From positions 1 through 57,641 of the forward strand of contig JAJYWQ010000011.1 of NCBI GenBank assembly GCA_021791415.1: a stretch of DNA of 57,641 nt, written 5' to 3'. The stretch comes from a bacterium. Its GTDB lineage: Bacteria > Chloroflexota > Dormibacteria > Aeolococcales > Bog-877. The notes beneath the pieces were generated by a model, which was not told where the DNA came from, searched no databases, and saw only the letters and a list, made by a program, of their open reading frames with translations. Positions 10 through 12,301 of this stretch are shown piece by piece. The translations under genes and the position numbers were made by a program. Position 1 is the first letter of the stretch, and every line of letters starts with the position of its first letter.

Positions 10-85
10 TGGTGCCCCCGGAAGGACTCGAACCTCCGACACGCGGTTTAGGAAACCGCTGCTCTATCCCCTGAGCTACGAGGGC
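10..85 (-). tRNA. tRNA-Arg (anticodon CCU)
   Basis: Read on the minus strand this folds as a complete cloverleaf. The 7-bp acceptor stem pairs GCCCTCG with CGGGGGC, the discriminator is A and a genomically encoded CCA ends at position 10. The anticodon loop is TTCCTAA, giving anticodon CCT, which reads AGG (Arg). The T-arm has GGAGG, the loop TTCGAGT and CCTTC with one G-T pair. It stands alone and is transcribed away from the next gene. Confidence 0.95.
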
Positions 86-319: not shown

Positions 320-329
320 CTCGACTTCA

Positions 330-335
330 TATAAT
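330..335 (+). promoter_or_regulatory. -10 box TATAAT of a leaderless transcript
   Basis: A perfect TATAAT ends six bases before the GTG at 342. With normal spacing the first transcribed base would be the G of the start codon. No Shine-Dalgarno lies between them and no good -35 is visible. Confidence 0.7.
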
Positions 336-341
336 CCGGGC

Positions 342-1262
342 GTGCTTCTGGTCGCCAGCGCCAACGGGTCGGTGGGCATGAGCGCTGGCTGGGCCATCCT
401 GTCCGCCGGCGGCTCCGCGCTCGACGCCGTGGAGGCCGCGGCGCGCGAGGTCGAGGACAACCCCGACGACCATTCGGTCGGGTACAGCGGGTATCCCAAC
501 CTGTTGGGGCAGGTCGAGCTGGATGCCTCCCTCATGGACGGCGCGACGCGCCGCGCGGGAGCCGTGGGGGGAGTCCGGCGCTTCCGTCATCCGGTCACCA
601 TCGCTCGTGCGGTGATGGAGAGGCTCCCCCATGTGATGCTGATCGGCGACGGTGCCGAGAGACTCGCGGCCGAGATTGGGATGGAGCCGGAGAACCTGCT
701 CACCCCGGAGGCGGAGGCCGCCTGGCGCGAAGGGGTGAGCGGGGAAATCAAGCCGGAGGACTCCCGGCGGCGGCTCTTGGACCGGGTGGCCGGCCTGTTC
801 GCCGACCCCGAGCACGTGGCCGGGACCGTGAACTTCCTGGCCATCGACGCCAGGGGCCACCTGGCCTCGGCCGTGAGCACCAGCGGCTGGGCCTGGAAGT
901 ACCCCGGACGGTTGGGTGATTCCCCGGTGATCGGGGCCGGCAACTACTGCGACGACCGCTTCGGAGCCGCTGCATGCACCGGCTGGGGGGAGCTGGCCAT
1001 CAGAGGTGCGACGGCCCACACCCTGGTCACCCTGCTCTCCCAGGGGGTCCCGCTGGAGGAGGCTGCCAGCGGGGCTTTCGCCGCTCTCTCCGGCCTCGAC
1101 GTTCCGGGGGGCGAGCCGATCATGAACCTCGTCGCCCTGGACCCGGAGGGGCGGCACACGGGCCTCAGCTCCCAGCCGGGCAACTCCTACGTGGCCTGGG
1201 AGGAGGGGATGTCCAACTACGTCACCCTTCCCCGGCGCGTGGTCTCCATCGCTGCCCGCTGA
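342..1262 (+). CDS. Isoaspartyl peptidase / L-asparaginase family (N-terminal nucleophile hydrolase)
   Basis: The 306-residue product matches the plant-type asparaginase and aspartylglucosaminidase family, whose members cleave beta-aspartyl or GlcNAc-Asn amide bonds after self-processing. The segment GTVNFLAID carries Thr162, the expected new N-terminal nucleophile after autocleavage. It is followed by the family motifs around STSGWAWKYPGR, GDSP and GAG-Y-DD, and by ATG-GELA-like substrate-loop residues. Length is normal for the unprocessed precursor. The GTG at 342 is chosen because TATAAT ends six bases upstream, implying a leaderless mRNA. It precedes a run of other amide and peptide hydrolases, so a role in degrading amidated or isomerised peptides is inferred. 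The exact substrate (isoAsp peptide, Asn or glycoasparagine) cannot be told from sequence. Confidence 0.85.
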   Translation: MLLVASANGSVGMSAGWAILSAGGSALDAVEAAAREVEDNPDDHSVGYSGYPNLLGQVELDASLMDGATRRAGAVGGVRRFRHPVTIARAVMERLPHVMLIGDGAERLAAEIGMEPENLLTPEAEAAWREGVSGEIKPEDSRRRLLDRVAGLFADPEHVAGTVNFLAIDARGHLASAVSTSGWAWKYPGRLGDSPVIGAGNYCDDRFGAAACTGWGELAIRGATAHTLVTLLSQGVPLEEAASGAFAALSGLDVPGGEPIMNLVALDPEGRHTGLSSQPGNSYVAWEEGMSNYVTLPRRVVSIAAR

Positions 1263-1289
1263 CCGCGGGGAAGTGCCGGGCCGCGCCGA

Positions 1290-1295
1290 TATGAT
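1290..1295 (+). promoter_or_regulatory. -10 box TATGAT of the KPR-amidase operon
   Basis: TATGAT lies about 50 bases upstream of the TTG at 1347. It would give a short 5' leader containing the Shine-Dalgarno GGGAGA. It probably drives the tightly packed run to about 9.29 kb. Confidence 0.4.
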
Positions 1296-1346
1296 CGGAA
1301 CTGCCGCCCTTCGGCGGTCGGCGCAGCCAACGCCGGGAGAGCTTTT

Positions 1347-3506
1347 TTGCACCTGACCATCATCGGCGCCGGGGCCATCGGCGGGACCATCGGGGCCCAC
1401 ATGGCCCGGGCCGGGCACGAGGTGCTGCTCTGCGACGCCGACCGGGAGCATGTCGAGGCCATCAACCGCGACGGTCTCACTATCGAGGGACCGGTGGCCA
1501 GCTTCACCGTGAGGGTCCCGGCAGTCACTCCAGACCAGCTCCCGGAGCGGCTGGACAGGGTCGGGTTCGCCGTCAAGAGCCATCACACCCGGCAGGCGGC
1601 CGAGCTCCTTCGGGGCCGCCTGGCGCCGGACGGCTACGTGGTGAGCTTGCAGAACGGACTCAATGCCGCCGCCCTCTCCGCCGTGGTGGGGGAGGCCCGG
1701 GTGTTGCTCGGATTCGTCAACTTCGGGGCGGACCTCATGGCCCCCGGCCGGATCATGCAGGGCAACGTCGCGACATTCCGGGTGGGGGAGGTCAAGCCCG
1801 GGCCGGTGACACCTCGGGTGCGGGAGCTGGCGGATGCCCTGCCCTACGCCGAAGCCACCGACAACATCATGGGCTTCCTCTGGAGCAAGGAGGCCTACGG
1901 GGCCATGCTCTTCGCGGGCGCCGTCTCCGACCTTCCCATCTCCGCCACCCTCGAACAGCAGGAGTGGCGCCCACTCATGCTGGCCGTGGCCCGGGAGGTG
2001 CTGGCTCAGGCCCCGGTGCGCTGCGAGCCCTTCGACGGCTTCGACCCCAGGGATTTGGAGGGCTCTCTCGGCAGGCTCGCCGAATTCAATCGTCGTAGCG
2101 CCAAGTCCCACAGTGGCATCTACCGCGACCTCATGGTGCGTCACCGCCCCACCGAGGTGGAGGGACAGCTGGCCGATCTACAGGGCCCGCTCACCCATCA
2201 CGTTGCCGAGATAATCCGCTCCATCGAGCGGGGCGAGCGCACCTGTGAGGTGGCGAACCTGGTCCTTCTCTCGGCGCTGCACCGGGCGGAGGAGACGGGT
2301 CGGGAGCTGCAGGCGGTGGTGCACCTCATATCCGCGCCGCTCCGGGCGCGCACAGGTCCGCTCCTCGGGGTCCCGGTAGCGGTGAAGGATCTCTTCGCTG
2401 TCCGGGGACTGCCCCGGGGCAACGGCAATCCGGAAGCCATGTCCGGCCGGCCCGCCGGCTCCGACAGCGCGGTGGTGGCCCAGCTGCGGGCGGCGGCGGC
2501 GGACGTCTTCGCCACCACCGCCATGCTGGAGTACGCGGCCGGGGCAACCCATCCAGCCGTGCCCGAGACCCTCAATCCCTGGGCGAGGAGCCGCACCGCC
2601 GGGGGATCCAGCGGTGGCTCGGCTGCCCTGGTCGCGGCCGGTGTCTGCCCGGCAGCGCTGGGCACCGACACCGGTGGATCGGTGAGGATCCCCGCCGCCT
2701 ACTGCGGGGTCGTCGGCTTCAAGCCATCCCACGGGCTCCTCGGTCAGGCCGGGGTGCAGCCGCTGGCGCCGACCCTCGACGACGTGGGCATCGTCGCCTG
2801 GGACGTGGCCACGGTCCAAAAGGTTCTGGGGGCGCTGGTGCCGGCGTCTCACTCCCCCAGGGGGCCCCTCGCCTTGGCTTACGTCCCCTCCCACTTCGGT
2901 GACCCCCGGATGGAGGGAGGCGTCTTGGGCCAGTTGGCGACGACCCTGGAGCGCCTCCGGAGTGCCGGTGTCACCCTGGTGGAGCGCGATGCCCTAGTCC
3001 TCAACGAGCTGGACCAACTCTTTGACCCCATCTTCCTGTATGAGGCGTGGCAGGTGCACGGCCCGACCGTCGAAACCCGTCCTGGCCACTTTGGGCCAGA
3101 GACGCTGCGGCTGCTTCAGGCCGCCCGCGCCGTGGGGGTTGAGGAGTATCGGATGGCGCTGGACCGTCGGGAGCAGCTGCTCTCAGCCTTCTCCGACCTC
3201 CTCTTGGGGGTGGATGGCCTCCTCACCCCTGCGGTGCCCTTCGTGGCGCCGCGGACCACCCCGCCGGTGGACACCCCAGAGGGGGAGGCCGAGGCCGCCT
3301 ACACTCGGATGGTCAACGTGGCGGGGGCTCCGGCGGCGGCCCTGCCCTGTGGCCTCAGCGAGGGGATGCCGGTCTCCATCCAACTGGTGGGGAATCCTGG
3401 CGCGGACTGGCCACTCCTCGGCGCCGCAGCAGAACTGGAGCGGTTGTTTAGGTTCGAGGAGTTTGGTCGGCTGTCGCCGGGCGCAGCCGCGGGGAGAGTC
3501 GATTGA
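1347..3506 (+). CDS. Fusion: ketopantoate-reductase-like dehydrogenase + amidase-signature amidase
   Basis: A single 719-residue frame joins two enzymes. Residues 1-310 are ApbA/PanE-like: Rossmann motif GAGAIGG near the N-terminus, SLQNGLNA, and the C-terminal helical domain. Residues 330-719 are an amidase-signature hydrolase. The catalytic triad is visible: Lys347 in VAVKDLF, cis-Ser421 in GGSSGGS and nucleophile Ser445 in GTDTGGSVRIPA. The amidase lacks part of its usual N-terminal helical arm, so the dehydrogenase tail runs almost directly into the core. Start is TTG behind GGGAGA. The next gene overlaps by TTGA. An NAD(P)-dependent oxidation of a hydroxy or oxo acid coupled to amide hydrolysis is inferred; the substrate is unknown. 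No frame break is seen at the junction. Confidence 0.85.
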   Translation: MHLTIIGAGAIGGTIGAHMARAGHEVLLCDADREHVEAINRDGLTIEGPVASFTVRVPAVTPDQLPERLDRVGFAVKSHHTRQAAELLRGRLAPDGYVVSLQNGLNAAALSAVVGEARVLLGFVNFGADLMAPGRIMQGNVATFRVGEVKPGPVTPRVRELADALPYAEATDNIMGFLWSKEAYGAMLFAGAVSDLPISATLEQQEWRPLMLAVAREVLAQAPVRCEPFDGFDPRDLEGSLGRLAEFNRRSAKSHSGIYRDLMVRHRPTEVEGQLADLQGPLTHHVAEIIRSIERGERTCEVANLVLLSALHRAEETGRELQAVVHLISAPLRARTGPLLGVPVAVKDLFAVRGLPRGNGNPEAMSGRPAGSDSAVVAQLRAAAADVFATTAMLEYAAGATHPAVPETLNPWARSRTAGGSSGGSAALVAAGVCPAALGTDTGGSVRIPAAYCGVVGFKPSHGLLGQAGVQPLAPTLDDVGIVAWDVATVQKVLGALVPASHSPRGPLALAYVPSHFGDPRMEGGVLGQLATTLERLRSAGVTLVERDALVLNELDQLFDPIFLYEAWQVHGPTVETRPGHFGPETLRLLQAARAVGVEEYRMALDRREQLLSAFSDLLLGVDGLLTPAVPFVAPRTTPPVDTPEGEAEAAYTRMVNVAGAPAAALPCGLSEGMPVSIQLVGNPGADWPLLGAAAELERLFRFEEFGRLSPGAAAGRVD

Positions 3507-4546
3507 AAGCTGCTGTGTATCGGGGTGCCGGGAATGTCCAGGTGGAGGAGGTGCCCGATCCGGCGATAGTGGAGCCTACCGACGCGGTCGTGCGCGTGGT
3601 CCGTTCCTGCATCTGCGGCTCGGACCTCTGGGCCTACCGGGGGGTGATCCAGCGAGCTGTGCCCGCACGCCTCGGTCACGAGTTCCTGGGGGTGGTGGAG
3701 TTCGTCGGCCCAGACGTCCGCACGGTGGCCGCAGGCGATCTCGTCGTGGCCCCCTTCCAGTGGAGTGACAACACCTGCCCCGCCTGCCGCGACGGGATCC
3801 AGACTTCCTGCGTTAACGGCGGGACCTTTGGCGCCCCGGGGACCGACGGCGGCCAGGGCGAGGCGGTGCGGGTGCCCTGGGCCGACGGGACCCTTGTGGC
3901 GGTGCCCGGGGGCATCGCCGGGGCCACCGACGGACTGCTGAGGTCCCTCCTGGCCACTACCGATGTGGCTGCCACCGGACTCCACGGCGCCCGCCTCGCC
4001 GAGGTCGGCCCGGGCAGCACCGTCGTGGTCATCGGCGACGGCGCTGTGGGCCTGTGCGCCGTCCTGGGCGCCAGATCCATACTCGGCGCGGAGCGGATCA
4101 TTCTCTGCAGCCGCAACCCGCATCGCCGGGAGCTCGGCAGGCGATTCGGAGCCACCGAGGTGATCTCGGAGCGAGGAGATGCGGCGGTGGCCGCGGTGCG
4201 CGATCTCACCGGTGGGCTGGGCTCGCGCCACGTGGTCGAGGCGGTGGGGACCCCGGAGGCGTGGGAGATGGCGCTGGGGATGGCCCGGGAGGGGGGCACC
4301 ATCGGGGCGGTGGGCGTTCCCCACACCACCCCGCAGCTCGCGCTCTTCCCCCTTCTGGTCCACCATCTGCGGGTCCACATGGGGGTGGCCCCGGTTCGCC
4401 ACTATCTTCCTGACCTGATCGACAGGGTGATGGCCGGGACCTACGACGCCGGGGCGGTCTTCGATCTCGAGCTTCCGCTGGACCAGGTTGCCGAGGGATA
4501 CCGGGCGATGTCGGAGCGCAGGGCGATCAAGGTGATGCTCACATGA
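3503..4546 (+). CDS. Zinc-dependent alcohol dehydrogenase (MDR family)
   Basis: The 347-residue medium-chain dehydrogenase has the catalytic-zinc ligands in CGSD (near residue 38) and GHE (near 60). The NAD(P) Rossmann motif is IGDGAVGLCAV. The structural-zinc lobe has only three cysteines (N-CPAC-x7-C), with Asn at the usual first Cys position, so the structural zinc site may be altered. The gene begins with TTG overlapping the previous stop (TTGA) and ends overlapping the next start (ATGA), so it is translationally coupled on both sides. It probably oxidises an alcohol intermediate of the same uncharacterised catabolic pathway. Confidence 0.85.
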   Translation: MKAAVYRGAGNVQVEEVPDPAIVEPTDAVVRVVRSCICGSDLWAYRGVIQRAVPARLGHEFLGVVEFVGPDVRTVAAGDLVVAPFQWSDNTCPACRDGIQTSCVNGGTFGAPGTDGGQGEAVRVPWADGTLVAVPGGIAGATDGLLRSLLATTDVAATGLHGARLAEVGPGSTVVVIGDGAVGLCAVLGARSILGAERIILCSRNPHRRELGRRFGATEVISERGDAAVAAVRDLTGGLGSRHVVEAVGTPEAWEMALGMAREGGTIGAVGVPHTTPQLALFPLLVHHLRVHMGVAPVRHYLPDLIDRVMAGTYDAGAVFDLELPLDQVAEGYRAMSERRAIKVMLT

Positions 4547-5775
4547 GCCCTGCTTCCCACTCCGGCCCCGGCCGCTACCGCGGATACCGCTCCTACCAGT
4601 ATCTCGAGCCCCGGCGGGACTACCGGACGTTCGAGCTGGCCGCGGAGCTGGACCGGGTGCCGTCCGCGGCGGTGCCGACCTCGGCGGAAGAGGAGAGGAG
4701 GGTGCGGCGGCTGCTGGCCGAGGGCCCGATCATCTCCCTCCACGACCATCCCGTGGTGGTGCCCGAGCGCATCGAGGAGCTGCTCGACTACCGGCGGCAC
4801 GGTCGCGACTGGACAGGGTACCTGGGCCTCAGCCGCTCCGGTCTTCACGCCGTCATTGACAACCTGGCAGATGGAGAGGGGTTGATCACCTCCCGCAACG
4901 GCTGGAAGTGGGACGAAACCCTCGCCGACCTGGGCATGCGCCTTTGCGATCTGGCACACCAGGACTACGTGCGGGTGGTGCATCGCTTCTCCGACATAGA
5001 GGAGGCCAGGGCCCAGGGGCAGCTGGCCATGATCCTGGGGATCGAGTCGGCCACTCCGATCGAGAACGAGCTGGATCGGCTGGACATCCTCTACGGCTTC
5101 GGCATCCGCTCGGTGGGCGTCACCTACAGCGAGGCAAACCTCCTTGGCAGCGGCCTAGCTGAGGCTCACGACGCCGGGCTCACGGCTTTTGGGCGCCGGG
5201 CTGTCCGGCGGATGAACCAGCTGGGGATCCTCATCGACTGTGCCCACGCCGGCGACCGGACCACTCTGGAGACGATCGAGGCCAGCTCGGCCCCGGTGGC
5301 CATCTCGCACGCTGGGGCGCGGGCGGTCTGGCCCACCAGCCGGATGAAGCCGGACGAGGTGATCCGCGCCTGTGCCGACTCCGGTGGCGTGATCGGGATC
5401 GAGGCTGCTCCCCACACCACCCTCACCCGGGAGGACACTCACCACAGCATTGACACCTACATGGCTCACTTCGAGTACTGCGCCGAACTGGTCGGGATCG
5501 AGCATGTGGGGTTCGGGCCCGACACCCTGTTCGGGGACCACGTGGGGATGCACCGGGTGATGTCCGACTGGTTCGGCGAGCCGCCCGCCGCTCCGCCTCA
5601 GCCGATCGAGAAGGTGGAGTGGGTGCAGGGGCTGGAGAGCCCCGCGGAGGCGCTCACCAACATCGTGCGCTGGCTGGTGGTCCACGGATACCAGGACCGG
5701 GAGATCCTCCTGGCGGCAGGGGGCAACGCGATGCGCCTCCTGGAGGTCGCCTGGCGCCCGGGGGTGGAGGGTTGA
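4543..5775 (+). CDS. Membrane dipeptidase (peptidase family M19)
   Basis: The 410-residue product carries the renal-dipeptidase TIM-barrel pattern: LHDHP near residue 65 with the first zinc ligands, the bridging Glu in GIES, and HAG and SHAGAR segments with downstream zinc-ligand histidines. The family hydrolyses dipeptides, including those with D-residues, and some beta-lactams. No signal peptide is visible, so the enzyme is probably cytoplasmic. The ATG overlaps the preceding stop by ATGA, placing it in the same operon as the amidase fusion and the Zn-ADH. The N-terminal segment of about 50 residues (Tyr/Arg-rich) before the core resembles that of bacterial M19 paralogues rather than the mammalian enzyme. 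Confidence 0.85.
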   Translation: MSPASHSGPGRYRGYRSYQYLEPRRDYRTFELAAELDRVPSAAVPTSAEEERRVRRLLAEGPIISLHDHPVVVPERIEELLDYRRHGRDWTGYLGLSRSGLHAVIDNLADGEGLITSRNGWKWDETLADLGMRLCDLAHQDYVRVVHRFSDIEEARAQGQLAMILGIESATPIENELDRLDILYGFGIRSVGVTYSEANLLGSGLAEAHDAGLTAFGRRAVRRMNQLGILIDCAHAGDRTTLETIEASSAPVAISHAGARAVWPTSRMKPDEVIRACADSGGVIGIEAAPHTTLTREDTHHSIDTYMAHFEYCAELVGIEHVGFGPDTLFGDHVGMHRVMSDWFGEPPAAPPQPIEKVEWVQGLESPAEALTNIVRWLVVHGYQDREILLAAGGNAMRLLEVAWRPGVEG

Positions 5776-5831: not shown

Positions 5832-6515
5832 GTGAGGGTGGCGGTGGTCACCGGGACGGCCCAGGGGATCGGTGCCGCCATCGCCGCGGCGCTGGAGGCG
5901 GACGGAACCCGGGTGTTCGGGTTCGACCGCGACCAGGTGGACATCACCGACCGGAGCCAGGTGGACAGCTACTTCGCCTCCCTGCCCCCGGTCGACATCC
6001 TGGTCAACAACGCCGGTGGGGTGTGTGGCCAGACCTTCTCCCCCCTGGAGGAGGTGACCGACGAGTCCTGGCGGGCGGTGGTCGACGCCAACCTGACCGG
6101 GACCTTCCACTGCACCAGAGCGGTCGTGCCGGGAATGAAGCGGGCCGGCTGGGGGCGAATCGTGAACATCTCCTCGGGTGCGGGCCGAACCGTCTCCCTC
6201 ACCGGGATCCAGGCCTACGCCGCGGCCAAGGCGGCCCAGATCGGGTTCACCAGGCAGATGGCCCACGAACTGGGCCGGTTCGGCATCACCGTGAACTGCA
6301 TAGCCCCCGGGTTCATCCTCTCCAACCCCACCACCCGGCGCCAGTGGGAGAGCTACGGGGAGGAGGGGCAGGCACGGGTTCTGGCGGGGATCGCGGTCGG
6401 CCGCCTGGGGCGTCCGGAGGACATCGCCCACGGAGTCCGCTTCTTCGTGGCCGAGGACTCCTCCTGGATCACCGGCCAGACCATCTCCATCGACGGCGGC
6501 AGTGCCCTCCTGTAG
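5832..6515 (+). CDS. Short-chain dehydrogenase/reductase
   Basis: This classical SDR of 227 residues shows TGTAQGIG (cofactor loop), NNAGG, the catalytic Ser in NISSGAG and YAAAK (Tyr-x3-Lys). It ends with the usual ITGQTISIDGG. The GTG at 5832 is chosen because GGAGGTGA sits six bases upstream and the protein then begins directly at the first beta strand. A TTG at 5772 overlapping the previous stop is the alternative and would add 20 unconserved residues. It resembles FabG-like 3-oxoacyl reductases, but context suggests a dedicated catabolic dehydrogenase. Confidence 0.85.
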   Translation: MRVAVVTGTAQGIGAAIAAALEADGTRVFGFDRDQVDITDRSQVDSYFASLPPVDILVNNAGGVCGQTFSPLEEVTDESWRAVVDANLTGTFHCTRAVVPGMKRAGWGRIVNISSGAGRTVSLTGIQAYAAAKAAQIGFTRQMAHELGRFGITVNCIAPGFILSNPTTRRQWESYGEEGQARVLAGIAVGRLGRPEDIAHGVRFFVAEDSSWITGQTISIDGGSALL

Positions 6516-6576: not shown

Positions 6577-8307
<1,731 letters not shown>

Positions 8308-8319
8308 GGAGGGAACGAG

Positions 8320-9291
8320 GTGTCCGTGTCAAGGTTCGCGCAACTGGCCCCTGTACCAGGCGCCGTGGCCCGCGGCTGGGTCAGCGTACCCGGAGTCGAG
8401 CCCGCCTGGGAGCTGCCGGCAGTGGTCGTCCGGGGCGCAGAGGATGGGCCGACGCTCGCCGTGACCAGCGGGATGCACGCCGCCGAGTACGTGCCCATCG
8501 AGGCGGTCACCAGGCTGACCCGCTGGCTGGACCCGGCCCGTCTTCGGGGCACACTGGCGGCGGTGCTGGTGGTCAACACCCCCGGTTTCTATGAGCGATC
8601 GATCTATGTCAACCCCCGGGACGGTCGCAACCTGAACCGCTCCTTCCCGGGCGACAGGGACGGCGATCCCGCGGAGCGGGTGGCCAACTTCCTTCTCGAG
8701 GAGCTGATCGCCCCGGCCGACGCCTACGTGGACGCCCACTGCGGGGATCTCATCGAGGCGCTGAGCCCGTTCACCCTGTGGACCAGGGCGGGGGACGGCG
8801 AGGTGGCCGAGCGCTCCCGCCAGATGGCCCACGCCTACGGCTTCGAGCACAGCCTGGGAGTGGAGCCGGACTCGGTGCCCGGGGCGGCCTACGCCTCCGG
8901 CGCCCTCCGCGGGGTTCCGGGGATCATCGCCGAGATCGGACAGCAGGGAGTGGTGGACGAGGCTTCGGTGGGGCGCCACCTACGGGGGCTGCAGAACGTC
9001 CTGGCCCACCTCGGCATGATCGACCCCCTTGGCCCTCCTCCGCCTCCTCCCCAGGAGATGGATCAGATGGTCTGGACCAGGACCGACATCTCCGCCACCT
9101 ACCACCCCAAGGTGGTGGTGGGTGAGCTGGTCGAGGAGGGGCAGGTGGTCGGTGAGCTTCGGGACGTCTTCGGGGAGACGCTGCGCACCATCCGCGCCCA
9201 GGCCTCGGGGGTGGTGGTCTTCCTGGTCACCTCTCTGGCCGTCAAGGCCGGCGACCCGTTGCTGGGGCTCGGAGTTCCCGCCGGCCGCTGA
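8320..9291 (+). CDS. Succinylglutamate desuccinylase / aspartoacylase family zinc hydrolase
   Basis: The 323-residue product has the M14-like zinc site: H-x2-E in SGMHAAEY, the Arg/Asn pair in GRNLNRSFPG, the third ligand in VDAHCGD and the catalytic Glu in AEIGQQG. The C-terminal part contains a beta domain with lipoyl-like hairpins, as in AstE/AspA-type proteins. The family deacylates N-acyl amino acids or related amides. It starts GTG 12 bases after the DUF885 gene, behind GAGGAGGG, and closes the catabolic operon. Confidence 0.85.
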   Translation: MSVSRFAQLAPVPGAVARGWVSVPGVEPAWELPAVVVRGAEDGPTLAVTSGMHAAEYVPIEAVTRLTRWLDPARLRGTLAAVLVVNTPGFYERSIYVNPRDGRNLNRSFPGDRDGDPAERVANFLLEELIAPADAYVDAHCGDLIEALSPFTLWTRAGDGEVAERSRQMAHAYGFEHSLGVEPDSVPGAAYASGALRGVPGIIAEIGQQGVVDEASVGRHLRGLQNVLAHLGMIDPLGPPPPPPQEMDQMVWTRTDISATYHPKVVVGELVEEGQVVGELRDVFGETLRTIRAQASGVVVFLVTSLAVKAGDPLLGLGVPAGR

Positions 9292-9298
9292 CTGACCG

Positions 9299-9904
9299 TC
9301 ATACCAGCTCCACTCCCGCCGCCTCCAGCTCGCGGATGGCCCGCTCGCCCGCTCCAGGCGTGAGCTCCACCGCGGAGGTGGCGGAACTCACCAGGAAGCT
9401 CGGGTAGCCGAGGCGCATTGCGTCCAGTGCCGTCTCACGCACGCAGACGTCGAGGGCGAGGCCGGCCAACACCAGGCGGACCACTCCCAGCCTCTCCAAG
9501 ACCGCGCTAAGGCCGGTCGCCTCCACCCGACCGGAGGAGGGATCGCGCGACCCGAAGCCGGAGTAGCCGTCCAACCGGCCCTGGCCCTTGCGCACCAGGT
9601 GGTCGGGGCGGGGGAGCAGGGGGTGCAGCTCGGCCCCCCAGCTGTCCTGCACACAGTGCCGGGGCCAGAGCCCTCCCCGCTCCTGGAAGTGGGGGGTGAC
9701 GGCCGGGTGCCAGTCCTGGGTGCAGATCACCGGGGACCCCGCGGCGGCGGCGCCGGCCATGAGGGAGGCGCACTCGGCGGCCACCTCCTGGCCGCCGGGG
9801 ACGAACAGGGTCCCCCGGGGATCGGCGAAGTCGTTCTGCACGTCCACCACCACGAGGGCCACCCTGGGCCCCAGGGGCAGGGCGCCCGGCAGGTCAGCTG
9901 TCAT
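9299..9904 (-). CDS. pncA: Nicotinamidase / cysteine hydrolase (isochorismatase fold)
   Basis: The 201-residue product has the nicotinamidase triad: Asp21 in VVVDVQNDF, Lys106 in VRKGQ and Cys154 in LDVCVRETA. Metal ligands Asp64, His66 (TQDWHP) and His83 are in place, which favours nicotinamidase over generic isochorismatases. It converts nicotinamide to nicotinate for NAD salvage. The ATG at 9904 is used because GAGGTGGAG precedes it; the open frame continues upstream without homology. It is divergent from the kinase-phospholyase fusion and only 7 bases from the convergent end of the aspartoacylase-like gene. Confidence 0.85.
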   Translation of the reverse strand: MTADLPGALPLGPRVALVVVDVQNDFADPRGTLFVPGGQEVAAECASLMAGAAAAGSPVICTQDWHPAVTPHFQERGGLWPRHCVQDSWGAELHPLLPRPDHLVRKGQGRLDGYSGFGSRDPSSGRVEATGLSAVLERLGVVRLVLAGLALDVCVRETALDAMRLGYPSFLVSSATSAVELTPGAGERAIRELEAAGVELV

Positions 9905-9937
9905 CTCCACCTCAGGTGTCGGCTTCTTCCTCTTCCC

Positions 9938-9943
9938 TATATT
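9938..9943 (+). promoter_or_regulatory. -10 box TATATT, possibly bidirectional
   Basis: TATATT ends six bases before the ATG at 9950, so the forward transcript should be leaderless. The complementary strand reads AATATAGG, a plausible -10 for pncA, whose ATG is 32 bases away and has its own Shine-Dalgarno. Confidence 0.6.
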
Positions 9944-9949
9944 GCTGCT

Positions 9950-12301
9950 ATGGGCACACCGGCAACTCCTCCGCCCCTGGGGGCGATGCACGCTGCCCCG
10001 CCCCGGCTCACGGCAGCGGAGGCCGAGGCGGTGGCGCTCAGTCACTTCGGCCGTCGCGGCCGGGCCTATCTCCTGCCGGGGGAACGGGACCAGAACTTCC
10101 GCCTGGAGGCGGATGGTGAACCGCCGCTTCTCCTCAAGGTGAGCAACCGGGGCGAGGACTGCGACGTGATCCGGATGCAGCTCCGAGCCTTGCGCCAGGT
10201 GGCCGCGGCGGACCCGGAGCTGCCGGTTCCCAGGGTGCTCCCGTCGGCAGAGGGCCCGGAGATGGTGGCGCTTCCGGGCGGCGAGGTGGCCCGAATGCTC
10301 ACCTACCTGCCCGGGAGCCAGCTCCGGCCCGTGGACCTGACCTCGGAGGGGCTCTACCAGATGGGGAGGACCTCGGGCCGGTTGGGACACGCTCTGCGCG
10401 GCTTCTTCGACCCCGCGGCGGACCAGTCCATCCTCTGGAACCCCCGCCGGGTGGGGGAGGTGCGGCCCCTGCTCAGCTGGGTGCCCGACTCGCGGCGACC
10501 CCTGGTCGAGCGCGCCCTGGACCGGAGTGAGCCGCGGGTGCTCATGGCGCTGCCGGCCCTCCGCTCCCAGGTCATCCACAACGACCTCTCGTTCAGCAAC
10601 CTGACCTTCGAGGACTCATCCAAGATCAGCGGGATCCTGGACTTCGGCGACATGTGCCACACCGCCCTGGTCTCCGACCTCGCCGTTACCTGCGAGTCCA
10701 TCCTGGAGCTTCCCCGCGGGTTCGACGCCCTGGCCGTCGTGGCCTCGGGCTTCCAGGCGGTCACCCCGTTGGAGCCGGAGGAGGTGGAGCTCATCCCCGA
10801 CCTCCTGCTGGCCCGCTGGGCCACGCTCATCGCCGTATCCGCCTGGCGCCAGGTGGCGTTCCCCGAGACCTCGGCATACGTCGGGGGCTGGCAGCATGGG
10901 CCGTTGCAGCTGCTCTCCCAGGTGGAGCAGCTTGGAGAGGACCGCTGGCGGCGGCTGGTGCGCAACTCGGTCCGCGGTGCCCTCTCCCTCTCCCCGGGTG
11001 GAGCGGAGCCGCTCCCTTCGGCCGAGCTTGTGGAAGCCCGCCAAAGGCTCCTGGGACCGGCGCTCTCGCCGCTCTCATATTCCACCCCTCTCCAGCCCGT
11101 GAGCGGGGAGGGCGCCCTGCTCTTCGACCGGGACGGCACGGAGTACCTGGACGCCTACAACAACGTGCCGGTCCTGGGCCACGCCCACCCCGCGGTGGCC
11201 CGGGCGGTGGCGTCCCAGACCGCAGTCCTCAACACCAACACCAGGTATCTCTACCGCCCGGTGCTGGAGCTGGCGGAGCAGCTGGTGGCCACGATGCCAC
11301 CCGGCCTGGACACCGTGCTCTTCGTCAACTCCGGGAGTGAGGCGAACGATCTGGCCTGGCGGCTGGCCCGGGCCTTCACCGGCGGGGGAGGGGCCGTGGT
11401 CACCCGCCACGCGTACCACGGGATGACCAGTGCGGTGGCCGACTTCTCACCGGATGAGTGGCACATTCCCATCGCCCCTCCCCACGTGGCCATGGTGGAC
11501 GCCCCGGACGGGTATCGCGGCCCTCACCGGCGCGAGCGGCCGGGCTGGACCGATGGCTACCTCGCCCAGCTCGACGCCGCCGTCGTGGAGCTGGCCAGCC
11601 GAGGCCTGGCGCCCGCCGCGCTGCTGGTCGATCCGGCCTTCACCAGCGAGGGAGTGCTGCACGCCCCGCCCGGCTACCTGCGGGCTTTGTTCAAGCGCTG
11701 GCAGGACGCGGGCGGGCTGGTGGTCGCCGACGAGGTCCAGACCGGCTACGGGCGGCTGGGATCGTATCTCTGGGGGTTTGCCCGGCACGGCGCGCTCCCC
11801 GACCTGGTGACCCTGGGAAAGCCCATGGGCAACGGCTATCCCATCGGAGCCGTGGTGACCAGGGCCGAGGTAGTGGAGGCTCTGGCCGAGAAGACCGAGT
11901 GGTTCAGCACCTTCGGTGGCAACCCGGTGGCCTCGATGGCGGGCCTCGCGGTGCTCGGGGAGGCCAGACGGCCGGAGTTCCTGGACCGGGTCGAGGAGCT
12001 GGGGGGCCGCTTGGGGGGCACCCTGCGCGCCCTCGGTGAGCGCCACCCGTCAATCGGGGACGTGCGCCGGCTGGGCCTTTTGGCGGGGGTGGAGCTGGTC
12101 CGGAGCCCGGAGAGCCGTGCCCCCTTCCCCGAGCTGGCCGCCCGGGTGGTGGAGAGCATGCGCCGTGACGGGGTCCTGGTGGGCCGCACCGGCAGGGATG
12201 GCAACGTCATCAAGATCCGGCCGCCCCTGGTGGTCTCGTCGCAGCAGCTGGAGTTGATCTCCGTCGCCCTCGGCCGGGCCCTGGACTCCGAGTCCTCCTG
12301 A
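9950..12301 (+). CDS. Fusion: APH-fold kinase + class III PLP enzyme (hydroxylysine kinase/phospholyase-like)
   Basis: This 783-residue protein has two domains. Residues 1-350 are an aminoglycoside-phosphotransferase/homoserine-kinase-like kinase with catalytic HNDLSFSNLTF and metal motif LDFGD. Residues 370-783 are a class III aminotransferase-fold PLP enzyme with NSGSEAND, the Asp of VVADEVQTGYGR and the PLP Lys in TLGKPMGNGYP. The architecture matches the known pairing of hydroxylysine kinase with 5-phosphohydroxylysine (or ethanolamine-phosphate) phospholyase: phosphorylate an amino alcohol, then eliminate phosphate and ammonia to an aldehyde. The ATG at 9950 sits six bases after a TATATT box with no Shine-Dalgarno. 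A plain kinase/transaminase for another amino alcohol remains possible. Confidence 0.8.
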   Translation: MGTPATPPPLGAMHAAPPRLTAAEAEAVALSHFGRRGRAYLLPGERDQNFRLEADGEPPLLLKVSNRGEDCDVIRMQLRALRQVAAADPELPVPRVLPSAEGPEMVALPGGEVARMLTYLPGSQLRPVDLTSEGLYQMGRTSGRLGHALRGFFDPAADQSILWNPRRVGEVRPLLSWVPDSRRPLVERALDRSEPRVLMALPALRSQVIHNDLSFSNLTFEDSSKISGILDFGDMCHTALVSDLAVTCESILELPRGFDALAVVASGFQAVTPLEPEEVELIPDLLLARWATLIAVSAWRQVAFPETSAYVGGWQHGPLQLLSQVEQLGEDRWRRLVRNSVRGALSLSPGGAEPLPSAELVEARQRLLGPALSPLSYSTPLQPVSGEGALLFDRDGTEYLDAYNNVPVLGHAHPAVARAVASQTAVLNTNTRYLYRPVLELAEQLVATMPPGLDTVLFVNSGSEANDLAWRLARAFTGGGGAVVTRHAYHGMTSAVADFSPDEWHIPIAPPHVAMVDAPDGYRGPHRRERPGWTDGYLAQLDAAVVELASRGLAPAALLVDPAFTSEGVLHAPPGYLRALFKRWQDAGGLVVADEVQTGYGRLGSYLWGFARHGALPDLVTLGKPMGNGYPIGAVVTRAEVVEALAEKTEWFSTFGGNPVASMAGLAVLGEARRPEFLDRVEELGGRLGGTLRALGERHPSIGDVRRLGLLAGVELVRSPESRAPFPELAARVVESMRRDGVLVGRTGRDGNVIKIRPPLVVSSQQLELISVALGRALDSESS

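Follow-up and report, generated by a model that had tools for sequence, protein, structure and literature searches.

An ApbA/PanE-like dehydrogenase fused to an amidase-signature hydrolase is conserved in Candidatus Dormibacterota and actinobacteria

In the DNA stretch analysed here (57,641 nucleotides, called the window in the following) one gene encodes an ApbA/PanE-like dehydrogenase that is joined to an amidase-signature (AS) hydrolase, and the same fusion is present in a conserved gene island of many other genomes. The preferred reading, to which we assign a probability of about 55%, is that the fusion is a bifunctional catabolic enzyme combining amide hydrolysis with 2-hydroxy acid oxidation in an island for peptide use. 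We infer the direction of the reaction, the cofactor, the succession of the steps and the role of the island as follows. The C-terminal Ser-cisSer-Lys amidase would hydrolyse a small amide or peptide-like conjugate and free an acid. The N-terminal NAD-linked dehydrogenase of the ketopantoate reductase (KPR)/D-mandelate dehydrogenase fold would oxidise a 2-hydroxy acid, or run in reverse, with the hydroxy acid being either produced by the amidase hydrolysis or feeding it. Peptide-like compounds imported by the island would be trimmed by its dipeptidases, deacylases and isoaspartyl peptidase, and the carbon would be passed on via an alcohol dehydrogenase (ADH), a short-chain dehydrogenase (SDR) and often a methylaspartate ammonia-lyase. 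In support of a bifunctional enzyme, solved structures match each of the two folds almost from end to end, and the dehydrogenase residues Lys181, Asn103, Lys77 and Glu270 are kept. The features of the fusion are:

1347..3506, forward strand: fusion gene (ApbA/PanE-like dehydrogenase plus amidase-signature hydrolase), 719 aa, TTG start
1347..2306, forward strand: dehydrogenase part, residues 1-320, Rossmann plus helical domain (PF02558; fold matches)
1434..1436, forward strand: Asp30 at the end of strand 2, invariant (59/59)
1887..1889, forward strand: Lys181, counterpart of the catalytic Lys176 of E. coli ketopantoate reductase (58/59)
1899..1901, forward strand: Gly185, where ketopantoate reductase has Asn180 (Gly in 58/59)
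2154..2156, forward strand: Glu270, counterpart of ketopantoate reductase Glu256 (59/59)
2187..2306, forward strand: predicted shared junction helices 281-294 and 302-320, in which the dehydrogenase end serves as the amidase N-terminal arm (AF2; alignments)
2307..3461, forward strand: amidase-signature domain, residues ~321-705 (PF01425, 2.9e-70; Foldseek matches to 2dc0 and malonamidase E2)
2385..2387, forward strand: Lys347 of the amidase triad (49/49 aligned fusions)
2607..2609, forward strand: Ser421 (cis-Ser) of the amidase triad (49/49 aligned fusions)
2679..2681, forward strand: Ser445, amidase nucleophile (49/49 aligned fusions)

The reading frame at 1347-3506 is uninterrupted and holds both domains in frame, as the initial annotation had described. 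A ribosome-binding-like GGAGAG (1336-1341) is located five bases 5' of the TTG start. With Pfam, two of the three families expected for this architecture were recovered above their cut-offs, i.e. PF02558 (ApbA; residues 4-149, E 1.5e-29, 103 bits) and PF01425 (Amidase; residues 326-690, 238 bits versus a cut-off of 27), while PF08546 (ApbA_C) stayed below threshold at E 0.014. A PF08546 search of the source genome returned zero matches, i.e. no well-scoring ApbA_C, that of the fusion included. An open reading frame antisense to the fusion (327-2144, reverse strand, 605 aa) matched no NCBIfam family and looks like a shadow frame of GC-rich DNA.

To see how widely the fusion occurs, about 85,000 species genomes were scanned for relatives and the best 80 loci were taken. 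Among these, at least 57 loci, window included, carry both domains in one stop-free frame, confirming that the dehydrogenase-amidase fusion is real. The fused relatives are mostly 47-90% identical to the window protein and 702-772 aa long, except for one that is clipped at a contig edge. The frame is open in six genomes of the same genus (five at 85-91% identity, one at 71%) and in two other genera of the same family (62-63%). Hosts belong to Candidatus Dormibacterota and several actinobacterial classes; they comprise isolates of Microbispora, Planotetraspora, Streptosporangium, Nonomuraea and Microlunatus as well as metagenome-assembled genomes labelled Acidimicrobiaceae, Thermoleophilia and Candidatus Dormibacterota. 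Within the class of Microbispora the fusion was present in 7 of 395 sampled genomes. In plasmid and phage collections no record covered 80% of the fusion query, and amidases top the matches listed there. The initial annotation had regarded relatives with two separate genes as a sign of an assembly or sequencing error. Such relatives do exist, but they do not point to an artefact here: the aligned set shares the same junction, five isolate genera have one open frame, and an erroneous joining of two genes is ruled out by 57 fused loci from independent assemblies.

For the amidase half the assignment to the AS superfamily rests on PF01425, on the Lys-cisSer-Ser triad and on the fold. The triad Lys347-Ser421-Ser445, which had been noticed previously, is complete and invariant in all 49 aligned fusions. 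A Foldseek search with the AlphaFold2 (AF2) model returned 2dc0 and malonamidase E2 (E 6e-32 to 1e-30, TMt 0.82-0.89). None of the NCBIfam AS equivalog cut-offs (GatA, allophanate hydrolase, AtzE, indoleacetamide hydrolase) was reached, the best score being 213 versus 391 for PRK08310; the GatA model scored 177 versus 481.

The dehydrogenase half retains much of the KPR active site. According to alignments K181, N103, K77, S256 and E270 correspond to Lys176, Asn98, Lys72, Ser244 and Glu256 of KPR and are near- or fully invariant. The roles of Lys176, Asn98 and Glu256 in KPR catalysis have been described (PMC3478992). The closest fold match is the ketopantoate reductase 5ayv (E 2e-20, TMt 0.86); D-mandelate dehydrogenase 5x20 is matched as well (TMt 0.82), and N-(1-D-carboxylethyl)-L-norvaline dehydrogenase (1bg6) appears far more weakly. 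One fused protein, from a Jatrophihabitans metagenome-assembled genome (L065), carries Thr at the otherwise near-invariant catalytic lysine (K181T). The ketopantoate reductase label of the initial annotation is nevertheless misleading. Because Gly replaces Asn180, Asp30 is invariant and the TIGR00745 score of 119.1 bits stays below the NCBIfam cut-off of 141.35, this half is probably an NAD-linked KPR-fold enzyme rather than a ketopantoate reductase. Asp30 suggests the use of NAD(H), and Gly185, at the position contacting the product hydroxyl, may be indicative of a reaction that differs from that of KPR. A 'PanE' annotation of such proteins is thus probably wrong.

AF2 with 59 sequences predicted one compact model (pLDDT 93.8, pTM 0.91), in which helices 281-294 and 302-320 run through the junction and form a well-defined joint. 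Both helices are again present when the dehydrogenase is modelled alone. Malonamidase E2, a 412-residue target, could be aligned to the model over 424 columns (TMt 0.89), and phmmer aligned its residues 5-407 with residues 287-698 of the fusion. Since nearly all of malonamidase E2 is thereby matched, the last helices of the dehydrogenase are predicted to occupy the place of the amidase N-terminal arm, in agreement with the earlier suggestion of a shortened arm that is replaced in this way. The unfused ApbA relatives end in the same junction helices, and a related segment opens one standalone amidase (L121, from Modestobacter DSM 44400). Local alignments of residues 280-325 with true amidase N-terminal arms gave z values of 0.1 to 3.6, such that the segment may be either a homologue or a mere analogue of these arms.

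Among the relatives, fused and unfused versions occur side by side. The ApbA tree places 22 unfused sequences, from Geodermatophilaceae, Microbacteriaceae and other groups, in a single supported clade, which together with the single sequence L091 is nested inside the fused sequences. This topology requires three changes of fusion state, consistent with a single fusion event followed by two losses. A pre-fusion state was considered for the closest unfused cluster (L013/L014); its ApbA branch is very distant (length 1.69), such that this is only a possibility. On the amidase side the fused proteins group together (100/99), along with two standalone amidases (L113, L114) whose genomes gave no ApbA match. 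In Homoserinimonas the halves are separate genes that lie 16 kb apart in the same island, and Modestobacter DSM 44400 encodes both halves separately within one genome. Two genomes (G644, G753) have the amidase and lack ApbA, Modestobacter VKM Ac-2986 has ApbA and lacks a close amidase, and one further genome carries the fusion together with an unfused paralogue within ~14 kb. Split halves in one island, as in Homoserinimonas, speak for a common pathway, in which both activities probably take part. Because relatives encode the halves separately or keep only one of them, the covalent link, and hence channelling, appears not to be essential, and one step need not directly follow the other. With its fused, split and half-lost versions, this enzyme pair is a natural system in which to ask what is gained by a covalent enzyme fusion.

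The genes around the fusion belong to a conserved island, which in the window comprises:

342..1262, forward strand: isoaspartyl peptidase/asparaginase family 2, an Ntn hydrolase (PF01112, 2.6e-67; in 39/57 fused loci)
3503..4546, forward strand: zinc alcohol dehydrogenase, start overlapping the stop codon of the fusion (PF08240/PF00107; in 25/57 fused loci)
4543..5775, forward strand: peptidase family M19, membrane-dipeptidase type (PF01244, 2e-64)
5832..6515, forward strand: short-chain dehydrogenase, start inferred from similarity (PF00106, 3e-45)
6577..8307, forward strand: DUF885 protein, presumed peptidase (PF05960, 3e-144)
8320..9291, forward strand: AstE/AspA-type deacylase (PF24827, 1.4e-25)

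As the M19 start likewise overlaps the ADH stop, the fusion, ADH and M19 genes look like one operon. The initial annotation had grouped the fusion with the adjacent ADH and dipeptidase; both are part of a much larger conserved island. Recurring members are M55 D-aminopeptidase, isoaspartyl peptidase, DUF885, M19, M20 dipeptidase, AstE/DoeB-type deacylase and the creatininase family. At least two of seven amide/peptide hydrolase families were found nearby in 43/57 fused loci, a lower bound given that the loci differ in length. Other recurring neighbours are a family-5 peptide ABC transporter (31/57), SDR, zinc ADH, methylaspartate ammonia-lyase, an alpha/beta hydrolase and an RpiR regulator. 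The solute-binding protein of the island resembles nickel/opine and glutathione binders. The methylaspartate ammonia-lyase reaches 547 bits with TIGR01502 (cut-off 286), and such genes recur in the peptide-import island (L086:9936-11234 and 35 other loci); no glutamate mutase was noticed next to them. Several of the hydrolase families handle aspartyl or D-amino-acid peptides, which suggests, as a lead only, that the substrate is a half-amide or peptide of an aspartate-like kind. Overall, the peptide context is broad and points to no single substrate.

A tRNA-Arg (CCT; 10-85, reverse strand), the only tRNA of the window, adjoins the island, and an isochorismatase-type hydrolase (9308-9859, reverse strand; nicotinamidase-like, below cut-off) is convergent with it. 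A second two-enzyme frame (9599-12301, forward strand) combines an APH-type kinase (residues 161-370) with a class-III aminotransferase (498-893); it has partial PRK06148/PRK06149 matches below their cut-offs and is kept in the same genus. Elsewhere in the window we found polysaccharide/O-antigen-type biosynthesis genes at ~17-26 kb (Wzy-like, flippase, sugar transferases, nucleotide-sugar enzymes) and an ice-binding-like protein (PF11999; 31203-32246, reverse strand).

Different chemistries have been considered for the dehydrogenase half. It would be very improbable that a true ketopantoate reductase of pantothenate biosynthesis was incidentally fused to an amidase: the PF02558 match, the top fold matches 5ayv/5hws and the five retained active-site counterparts are what one would expect of it, but the Asn180 to Gly exchange in 58/59 sequences, Asp30 in place of the NADP-binding Arg, the TIGR00745 score, the sub-threshold ApbA_C match and a neighbourhood that resembles peptide catabolism speak against it. 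Equally far-fetched appears a breakdown of pantothenate or pantoyl amides, in which the amidase would split pantothenate into pantoate and beta-alanine, with pantoate being oxidised by the dehydrogenase. Both steps would be chemically natural and would account for the fusion of these two families; the same exchanges at the KPR site oppose it, however, and it leaves no obvious role for the dipeptidases, the isoaspartyl peptidase and the methylaspartate ammonia-lyase of the island. Action on a secondary amine instead of a hydroxy acid, in an opine-like manner as for N-(1-D-carboxylethyl)-L-norvaline dehydrogenase of the same superfamily, is improbable but has somewhat more in its favour. The presence of 1bg6 among the fold matches and the nickel/opine- and glutathione-like solute-binding protein are consistent with it, and the replacement of Asn180 could fit another substrate; yet the KPR-type Lys and Glu are kept, and 1bg6 is matched far less well than ketopantoate reductase or D-mandelate dehydrogenase.

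A more serious competitor, with a chance not far from even, is that two independent activities of one pathway were joined for co-expression and fixed stoichiometry only, with no intermediate being passed. It opposes the channelling proposed in the initial annotation and is otherwise compatible with the preferred bifunctional catabolic enzyme. The halves that are split within an island or a genome, the ApbA-only and amidase-only relatives, and the 22-sequence clade in which the link was dropped while the dehydrogenase was retained all favour it, while the persistence of the fusion across several actinobacterial classes and two phyla, as well as the predicted well-defined joint, argue against it. 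A rather speculative extension takes the opposite direction: helices 281-320 would both finish the dehydrogenase and replace the amidase arm, such that a rigid enzyme hands a hydroxy or oxo acid between its sites, in an undescribed actinobacterial pathway that uses peptides or half-amides of the aspartyl or methylaspartyl type.

The fusion, as a bifunctional catabolic enzyme, would mark two steps of an apparently single, uncharacterised catabolic route of many actinobacteria and Dormibacterota, and Microbispora, Planotetraspora and Modestobacter are cultured hosts in which this route is testable. In the literature on ketopantoate reductase/ApbA, amidases and methylaspartate ammonia-lyase we found no account of such a fusion or island, and neither the sequence matches nor the literature searched held a characterised enzyme of this architecture, as had been supposed initially. 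While the folds of both parts are known, their pairing is new with respect to this literature.

Compared with ketopantoate reductases (PanE/ApbA of E. coli; 5ayv/5hws of T. kodakarensis) the dehydrogenase half has the full-length fold and the catalytic counterparts in common. It differs by Gly in place of the residue contacting the product hydroxyl, by Asp30 where the NADP-binding T. kodakarensis enzyme has an Arg-rich turn, by its score below the subfamily cut-off, by being joined to an amidase and by its catabolic context. With D-mandelate and D-2-hydroxyacid dehydrogenases of the KPR fold (E. faecium 3wfi/5x20) it shares the fold (TMt up to 0.82), and with the L. brevis enzyme 8wl1 the Asp at the end of strand 2; identity is only ~20%, however, and the solved enzymes are unfused. 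The amidase half shares the complete Lys-Ser-Ser triad with malonamidase E2 (1obi, 1ocl), the T. thermophilus amidase 2dc0 and GatA, and the full AS fold with the former two, whereas its N-terminal arm would be provided by dehydrogenase helices. Allophanate hydrolase and urea amidolyase, families that turn up among the profile and sequence matches of the fusion, follow the same principle of an AS amidase with a partner domain in a nitrogen-compound pathway; in the window fusion this partner is an N-terminal dehydrogenase.
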